From Roseicyclus mahoneyensis (GTDB lineage Bacteria; Pseudomonadota; Alphaproteobacteria; Rhodobacterales; Rhodobacteraceae), in contig NZ_QGGW01000004.1 in the NCBI RefSeq assembly GCF_003148775.1, positions 124,001 through 188,000 of the forward strand: DNA of 64,000 nt, written 5' to 3'. Under the pieces are notes generated by a model. It was not told where the DNA came from, did not search any database, and saw nothing but the letters and a program-made list of their open reading frames with translations. Positions 42,273-42,975 of this stretch are shown here, one piece after another. The translations under genes were made by a program, and so were the position numbers. Positions within the stretch are counted from its first letter, which is position 1; the number at the start of each line of letters is the position of its first letter.

Positions 42273-42317
42273 CCCCAGCCATGCATTTGCTGCAAAGCAG
42301 CATTGAGGCATGCGCTA

Positions 42318-42345
42318 TTGTGCATTCGCAGCATTCGCTTATCTT
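42318..42345 (+). promoter_or_regulatory. Candidate promoter of the DUF1127-CcsR transcript
   Basis: TTGTGC, 16-bp spacer, TATCTT, 94 bases upstream of the DUF1127 start. In Rhodobacter sphaeroides the equivalent operon is driven by RpoHI/RpoHII heat-shock-type sigma factors; this site was read as sigma-70-like and could be of either class. Confidence 0.35.
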
Positions 42346-42438: not shown

Positions 42439-42663
42439 ATGGCATATGTTTCGAGCAACCGTACCACCGCCGCGCTGAGCCTTGGCGACCGCTTTGCCGA
42501 TATCCGCAAGGATCTGGCAGCGGCCTGGCGCGCGCACAGCATCTATCGGCAGACGCTGCGCGAATTGCAAGGGTTGTCGGCCCGCGAGTTGAACGACCTT
42601 GGCCTGAATCCGACCATGTTGCGCTCGATCGCACTGGAAGCGGCCTACGGCAAGAAGGGCTGA
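42439..42663 (+). CDS. DUF1127 small protein (CcaF1-like)
   Basis: 74 residues from the ATG at 42439, preceded by AGAGGAAAG. The C-terminal half has the DUF1127 pattern HSIYRQTLRELQGLSARELNDLGL (motif LSxRELxDLGL), and the protein is basic overall. In R. sphaeroides the homologous small protein (RSP_6037/CcaF1, 71 aa) is an RNA-binding protein co-transcribed with the CcsR sRNAs and involved in their maturation. Here a run of CCTCCTCCC-loop hairpins begins 25 bases after the stop, which supports the same function. Confidence 0.92.
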   Translation: MAYVSSNRTTAALSLGDRFADIRKDLAAAWRAHSIYRQTLRELQGLSARELNDLGLNPTMLRSIALEAAYGKKG

Positions 42664-42685
42664 GCCCGACGAATTTCGAAACAGC

Positions 42686-42760
42686 GCGGCGATCCTCCTC
42701 CTCCCTTGGATCGCCCCGCTCGCGGGTCCGCCTCCTCCTCCCTCTTGGGTGGGTCCGCAA
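42686..42760 (+). ncRNA. CcsR/cuckoo-type sRNA unit 1 (two CCUCCUCCC-loop hairpins)
   Basis: Hairpin a: GGCGATCC / GGATCGCC (42688-42715), perfect 8-bp stem with loop TCCTCCTCCCTT. Hairpin b: GCGGGTCCGCC / GGTGGGTCCGC (42722-42758), an 11-bp stem with three wobble pairs and loop TCCTCCTCCCTCTTG. The C-rich loops are anti-Shine-Dalgarno. They match the CcsR/cuckoo RNA plan (as recalled, two stem-loops with CUCCUCCC in the loops) found downstream of DUF1127 genes and processed from the shared transcript. Confidence 0.85.
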
Positions 42761-42788
42761 ATACCCGGTCCGGCAACGGACCACACGG

Positions 42789-42865
42789 ATCGGTTCCTTC
42801 CTCCTCCCTTGGGAACCGTGACGACCGGCGGCGGGGTTCTTCTCCTCCCTTGGCCCCGCCGCCAC
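42789..42865 (+). ncRNA. CcsR/cuckoo-type sRNA unit 2 (two CCUCCUCCC-loop hairpins)
   Basis: Hairpin a: CGGTTCC / GGAACCG (42791-42818) with loop TTCCTCCTCCCTTG. Hairpin b: GGCGGCGGGG / CCCCGCCGCC (42827-42863), perfect 10-bp stem with loop TTCTTCTCCTCCCTTGG. The stem sequences differ from unit 1 but the pairing is kept (compensatory change) while the loop motif is constant, which is strong evidence of selected RNA structure. Unit 1 and 2 are separated by a spacer with a small GCAA-loop hairpin (GGTCCG / CGGACC, 42767-42782). Confidence 0.85.
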
Positions 42866-42898
42866 GACATTCCGCCCCGGCCACGGCCCGGGCACCGC

Positions 42899-42975
42899 AG
42901 ATCGGCGCCTCCTCCTCCCTTGGCGCTTGATGCTGGCGGCGGGCCCTCCTCCTCCCTTGGGTCCGCCGCCTTTTT
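42899..42975 (+). ncRNA. CcsR/cuckoo-type sRNA unit 3 with terminator
   Basis: Hairpin a: ATCGGCGCC / GGCGCtTGAT (42901-42931), 9 bp with one bulged T and loop TCCTCCTCCCTT. Hairpin b: GGCGGCGGGCCC / GGGTCCGCCGCC (42935-42970), a 12-bp stem with one wobble and loop TCCTCCTCCCTT, followed directly by TTTTT. The last hairpin therefore serves both as a CcsR-type element and as the rho-independent terminator of the DUF1127 transcript, 19 bases from the convergent Lrp gene. Confidence 0.87.

Follow-up and report, generated by a model that had tools for sequence, protein, structure and literature searches.

What kind of RNA is encoded by the six hairpins that follow a DUF1127 gene in the window (the whole 64,000-nucleotide stretch of Roseicyclus mahoneyensis DNA analysed here), and what governs their transcription? 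The preferred reading, to which we give a probability of roughly three in four, is a PhaR-controlled plus-strand operon with an RpoH-type promoter, composed of the DUF1127 gene and three anti-Shine-Dalgarno sRNAs.

The hairpin array and its family

The array starts 20 nt 3' of the stop codon of a gene on the same strand (42439..42663, plus strand) encoding a ccaF1-like protein of 74 amino acids. The assignment of this gene to DUF1127 in the first-pass annotation agrees with Pfam (PF06568, 44 bits, E 1.9e-11). The left neighbour is an MFS-type gene and the right neighbour a gene for an Lrp/AsnC-type regulator, both on the minus strand, the latter being convergent with the array.

The six hairpins reported previously are real. 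They occupy positions 42683-42970 of the plus strand and are grouped 2+2+2. Hairpins 1 (42683..42720) and 2 (42722..42758) form unit 1, hairpins 3 (42791..42818) and 4 (42827..42863) form unit 2, and hairpins 5 (42904..42927) and 6 (42935..42970) form unit 3. Hairpin 5 has the weakest stem of the array. Hairpin 6 doubles as the stem of an intrinsic terminator, and the T-tract ascribed to it is present as TTTTT at 42971..42975 on the plus strand.

The gap lengths given earlier are correct for the second pair (8 nt) and the first spacer (32 nt), whereas the others, noted as 6, 3 and 37 nt, differ. The within-pair gaps are 1, 8 and 7 nt and the between-pair gaps 32 and 40 nt, although these lengths hinge on the chosen stem ends and the first gap becomes 6 nt if hairpin 1 is trimmed to its 8 unbroken pairs. 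The statement that the second stem of each pair is the longer holds for the unbroken stems (8/12, 8/12 and 6/12 bp) and, in terms of energy, for pairs 2 (-11.5 vs -25.8 kcal/mol) and 3 (-11.8 vs -28.7 kcal/mol). In pair 1 the difference is marginal (-15.5 vs -16.6 kcal/mol), and the stem score reverses the order (30 for hairpin 1 vs 28 for hairpin 2). The second stem is the stronger one in 204 of 238 close pairs of relatives.

The loop core described as constant is indeed constant as CTCCTCCC, found in 6/6 loops, but the 9-mer CCTCCTCCC is found in only five, the loop of hairpin 4 being TTCTCCTCCC. All five exact copies of CCTCCTCCC in the window lie inside the array; 0.67 copies are expected, and five were reached by 0/100 shuffles. 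The common element is longer than first noted, as the 12-mer CTCCTCCCTTGG is present in five of the six hairpins and hairpin 2 has CTCCTCCCTCTTGG. The 4.03 Mb genome contains six copies of the 12-mer, five of them in the array. The sixth was set aside, as it sits within another reading frame, which we take to be pyrG. The genome's other DUF1127 gene (L008, G000:C8, minus strand, ~1470-1673) has, by reading, no CCTCCTCCC array.

A search of the whole window with Rfam at gathering score returned tRNA only. At a lax threshold, the CcsR1 model (RF02791) matches unit 1 at 42678-42763 (23.6 bits), unit 2 at 42778-42867 (24.8 bits) and unit 3 at 42897-42974 (26.8 bits). Each match extends over model positions 1-83/83 with E values of 0.00025-0.0023 for 751 bases. 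The model thus covers each of the three proposed two-hairpin units end to end, below its gathering score. Other models score in the same range: ar14 reaches 33.8 bits at 42678-42798, above CcsR1, and 27.7 bits at unit 3, and 6C RNA reaches 29.9 bits at unit 1. Such sub-threshold scores are expected, since these models have C-rich loops. The array is called CcsR-type because of its anatomy and context; its CcsR1 scores of 23.6-26.8 bits lie far below the gathering score, which is 65.3.

The context is conserved. Among 75 related DUF1127 loci from named genomes, mostly of Rhodobacterales, a row of CTCCTCC motifs lies downstream of the gene in 73; the loci L102 and L103 have no such array behind the gene. 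The nearest related locus is that of Roseicyclus marinus, with 90% protein identity. In a wider count over 149 family genomes, a strict two-hairpin pattern was found in 12, being too strict for counting arrays, and a three-motif pattern in at least 81, missing the window's own array owing to its spacing. The reversed control of the latter pattern is uninformative because CCTCCTC is contained in the motif.

In R. sphaeroides, four CcsR sRNAs are co-transcribed with ccaF1 and are stress-induced (accessible parts of PMC10253847 and PMC8307010), as the first-pass annotation had stated. The CcsR1-4 system (behind ccaF1, RSP_6037) resembles the present locus in its DUF1127 gene and the downstream row of CCUCCUCCC loops. 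Its RpoH-type promoter and end terminator have putative counterparts here, in correspondingly placed TTG and TAT elements and in a hairpin with TTTTT at the end. The two systems differ in having four units there and three here, and the model scores here are far under gathering. The cuckoo RNA family (Reinkensmeier and Giegerich 2015, via the available text of PMC4504443 and PMC10253847) is defined by 2-4 adjoining hairpins with variable helices and a constant loop, and is linked to short DUF1127 genes. The window has six hairpins with covarying stems, five with the exact CCUCCUCCC loop and one with a single change; the arrangement differs from the family definition in being 3 x 2. The rhizobial RNA ar14/NfeR1 (RF02344) likewise carries CCUCCUCCC in the loops of all three of its hairpins, and its model gives the sub-threshold match across unit 1, but it is a lone three-hairpin RNA with its own promoter and is not situated behind a DUF1127 gene. 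The Pfam match, the sub-gathering CcsR1 spans and the arrays of the related loci agree with the earlier proposal of CcsR-type sRNAs behind a ccaF1-like gene, and on sequence grounds the array is supported as a further member of the CcsR/cuckoo kind. It would extend this known stress-sRNA family to another genus.

A pair of dyads in the putative promoter

Upstream of the DUF1127 gene there are two dyads with a spacing of 30-31 bp. The proximal dyad, TTGTGC-N4-GCAGCA (TTGTGCATTCGCAGCA, 42318..42333, plus strand), overlaps the putative -35 element TTGTGC (42318..42323, plus strand), both being recognised by sequence and conservation. The putative -10 element TATCTT (42340..42345, plus strand) follows 16 nt past the -35 and is also present in Roseicyclus relatives. 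A TTG/TAT combination has been described as the RpoHI/RpoHII pattern of a different DUF1127 gene, RSP_0557 (PMC10673084, in its accessible part). The distal dyad, TGCTGC-N3-GCAGCA (TGCTGCAAAGCAGCA, 42288..42302, plus strand), matches the R. sphaeroides PhaR site 5'-CTGCNNNGCAG-3' published in PMC12542648 (available text) and is one of five exact sites of this palindrome in the genome.

Both dyads are conserved. Among 76 DUF1127 loci (the window and its 75 relatives, 74 of them with an array), the proximal dyad is present in 73, that is, in 73 of the 74 array loci. It is missing at three loci: L102 and L103, which also have no array, and L098, which has one. In 64 of the 73 loci the proximal dyad is accompanied by a distal one scoring at least 9/12, at a distance of exactly 30 bp in 27 loci and 31 bp in 37; the remaining nine score 7 or 8 of 12. 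Shuffled sequences reach 9 in 2/1460 cases and a control position in 0/73. Across the order, an exact match to the proximal pattern was obtained in 129 of the 149 genomes, compared with about 11 for the reversed control. Among the array genomes in the matches listed (32 of at least 81), 23 have the proximal dyad, in exact form and on the array strand, ahead of the array; in the other nine the dyad is present at 13-15 of 16 positions in six and absent in three (G216, G120 and G271). L102 and L103 are DUF1127 genes with neither array nor dyads, so that both features go together there. A second dyad of the proximal type, TTGTGCATCTGCAGCA, is found in the genome at G000:C4:118287-118302 (L138:1088), away from any array.

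A single PhaR gene (PF07879) is present in the genome, immediately preceded by a phasin-like gene (Phasin_2, E 7e-5, a little below the curated cut-off), the promoter of which contains two dyads 26 bp apart that flank TTGACA. Among 20 other genomes, 12 have a dyad pair with a spacing of 26-28 bp in the stretch before phaR and 8 have no such pair; this survey covered the stretches ahead of phaR as such. The known PhaR (AniA) operators at phaP and mmgR share with the present promoter the pairing of TGC/GCA dyads around the -35, although the spacing is 26-28 bp at the phasin gene as against 30-31 bp here. The S. meliloti gene mmgR is repressed by PhaR via a dyad between -35 and -10, according to the available text; mmgR is thus an sRNA gene under PhaR, although, unlike the present sRNAs, it belongs to the ar8 family.

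The dyads might nevertheless serve a regulator other than PhaR, or the proximal block might be a long RpoH/-35 element, a reading that is possible although less favoured. The published PhaR sites have a 3-nt spacer and the proximal dyad here has one of 4 nt, and its left arm doubles as the -35. The fixed distance of the distal dyad and the twin pair before the phasin gene argue for PhaR. The distribution of PhaR is of limited help. It is present in 148 of 149 genomes, so that its co-occurrence with the dyad tests little, and site and regulator being both near-universal, there is no natural contrast. PhaR was also found in 14/14 named genomes checked, including those of L098, L102 and L103, which lack the dyads, and is therefore not sufficient for the site.

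A few genomes offer contrasts, noticed after the fact. In G216, the one genome that lacks PhaR, an array is present and the proximal dyad is missing (best 11/16), which speaks against another regulator. So do G120 and G271, of a single genus, which have the weakest PhaR scores of the 148: their arrays are without the dyad, and their phasin stretch has a changed dyad, TTGTGC-N3-GCACAA. In G229 the proximal dyad has a 3-nt spacer and equals the Bradyrhizobium (B. diazoefficiens) PhaR consensus TGCRNYGCASMA (PMC6201568, accessible part). At three of the five exact distal-type sites of the R. mahoneyensis genome there is no nameable PHB gene nearby, which, like the second proximal-type site and the 8 phaR stretches lacking a dyad pair, counts against PhaR. 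One exact PhaR-like dyad (G000:C14:29471-29485, L122) lies about 80 bp before an AMP-binding/ACAS_N gene of acyl-CoA synthetase type.

A PhaR-like operator is without mention in the accessible literature on the R. sphaeroides system, and a literature search, partly judged by title and the start of the abstract, found no paper linking PhaR with DUF1127 or CcsR. The proposed connection of PhaR to the DUF1127-CcsR promoter, based on sequence, was thus not found in print and may be new. A broader version of the PhaR reading is slightly favoured on balance. According to it, the DUF1127-CcsR operon would be a direct PhaR output throughout Rhodobacterales, PHB would free the two-dyad operator over the -35 in addition to the input from the stress sigma factor, and the number of tandem units would set the dose of anti-Shine-Dalgarno RNA, changing between close relatives.

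Expected action of the RNAs

Transcription, processing, targets and PhaR binding are proposed here by analogy with R. sphaeroides, NfeR1 and mmgR. Under stress, the RpoH-type promoter (TTG/TAT) would be used to transcribe the operon into a single RNA containing the DUF1127 gene and the three two-hairpin units and ending at hairpin 6 and the T-tract. Cleavage of the 3' part, in which RNase E is probably assisted by the DUF1127 protein as reported in R. sphaeroides, would yield three CcsR-type sRNAs of about 75-90 nt. Each sRNA would expose two C/U-rich loops that mimic the anti-Shine-Dalgarno sequence of 16S rRNA; by pairing with purine-rich ribosome-binding sites, these loops would block the mRNAs concerned or make them less stable. 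The stems would merely keep the loops open and shield the RNA, which would explain why they drift in a compensated fashion. Free PhaR would repress the operon at the promoter operator, and PHB, by drawing PhaR off, would relieve the repression and tie the stress sRNAs to carbon storage. If PhaR binds the operator, the CcaF1/CcsR stress network would be coupled to carbon storage, a counterpart to the PhaR control of mmgR in rhizobia.

Alternatively, the hairpins might have no role beyond the DUF1127 mRNA itself, stabilising its 3' end and terminating it in cis. The loop would then be conserved for binding by a protein such as the DUF1127 protein or Hfq, and there would be no targets in trans. 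The position of the arrays directly behind DUF1127 in 73/75 loci and the use of the last hairpin as terminator would suit such a role. A search of the whole genome for GGGAGGAGG 3-10 nt before an ATG, together with a comparison of one candidate, found no conserved target, which also agrees with it. Five genomic sites were found, of which one resembles a true start. It belongs to a gene (L135 / L148, G000:C8:11198-11215) that is presumably glpK, with a ribosome-binding site fully complementary to the 9-nt loop. This gene was rejected as a conserved target, the 9-mer being kept in 0/10 same-genus copies (L149-L158). A role only in cis is nonetheless unlikely. The CcsR1-4 RNAs of R. sphaeroides are processed, bound by Hfq and act on flhR mRNA and C1 metabolism, and the identical loop of rhizobial NfeR1 silences mRNAs through base-pairing, according to the available parts of the literature. 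Furthermore, the arrays of G120 and G271 stand without a recognised DUF1127 gene. The frame preceding these two arrays (L140 and L141) resembles a substrate-binding protein.

Stems, strand and units in the relatives

The anatomy, strand, paired evolution and conservation of the array, on which the preferred sRNA operon is built, are apparent from the sequences themselves. Arms were compared with their own and with swapped partners over the array loci using a stem detector (501 motifs). The pairing score with the own partner is at least 18 in 75% of the motifs, compared with 21% of 3200 swaps within loci and 22% of swaps between loci. In the window, hairpins 1-6 have own-arm scores of 27, 22, 20, 32, 13 and 31; hairpin 5 shows no gain over the swap (own arm 13 vs other arm 15). 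The terminal stems, aligned across relatives as the first-pass annotation had suggested, are kept as pairs. In 31 distinct terminal hairpins with ten pairs each, 306 of the 310 cells hold standard pairs, 108 cells have both sides changed relative to the commonest pair, and each of the ten pairs lies above the mean of 500 shuffles, although the stem ends were picked for best pairing, which biases toward this result. Arm swaps and two-sided changes together uphold the earlier claim that the stems drift with compensated pairing.

Stems detected with G-U and A-C treated alike contain 275 pairs of the former type and 57 of the latter, and the functional RNA is therefore that of the plus strand. The T-tract and the gene order suit the plus strand as well, so that a functional minus-strand RNA, with GGAGGAG loops soaking up a CsrA-like protein or ribosomes, is very improbable in spite of the GGA in the loop complement. 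A T run of at least four is found behind 34 of the 74 last hairpins, but behind 5 of the 462 inner hairpins. A coding or low-complexity repeat, suggested by the C/T-rich sequence and the overlapping ORFs, can be dismissed almost with certainty, because the motif spacings fall in all three frames (164, 143 and 146) and the arms covary, unless the covariation is a product of biased alignment.

The number of hairpins per locus found by the stem detector varies from 3 to 12, with zero at two loci, some counts being minima as several loci end at contig ends. The three units of the window are 71-78% identical to one another, and each is 85-99% identical to its positional counterparts in seven loci of the Roseicyclus group. 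In Roseicyclus sp. Amp-Y-6 (L031) there are six units, of which units 3-6 are 96-100% identical; units 3-5 of L032 are 93-94% identical. The tandem duplication postulated earlier is thus visible in the relatives, but the three units of the window itself are old. The identities indicate that the unit number shifts by tandem copying of the third unit type while the older units stay in place. Together with the compensated stems, this makes the array a clear example of an RNA evolving through duplication of its units.
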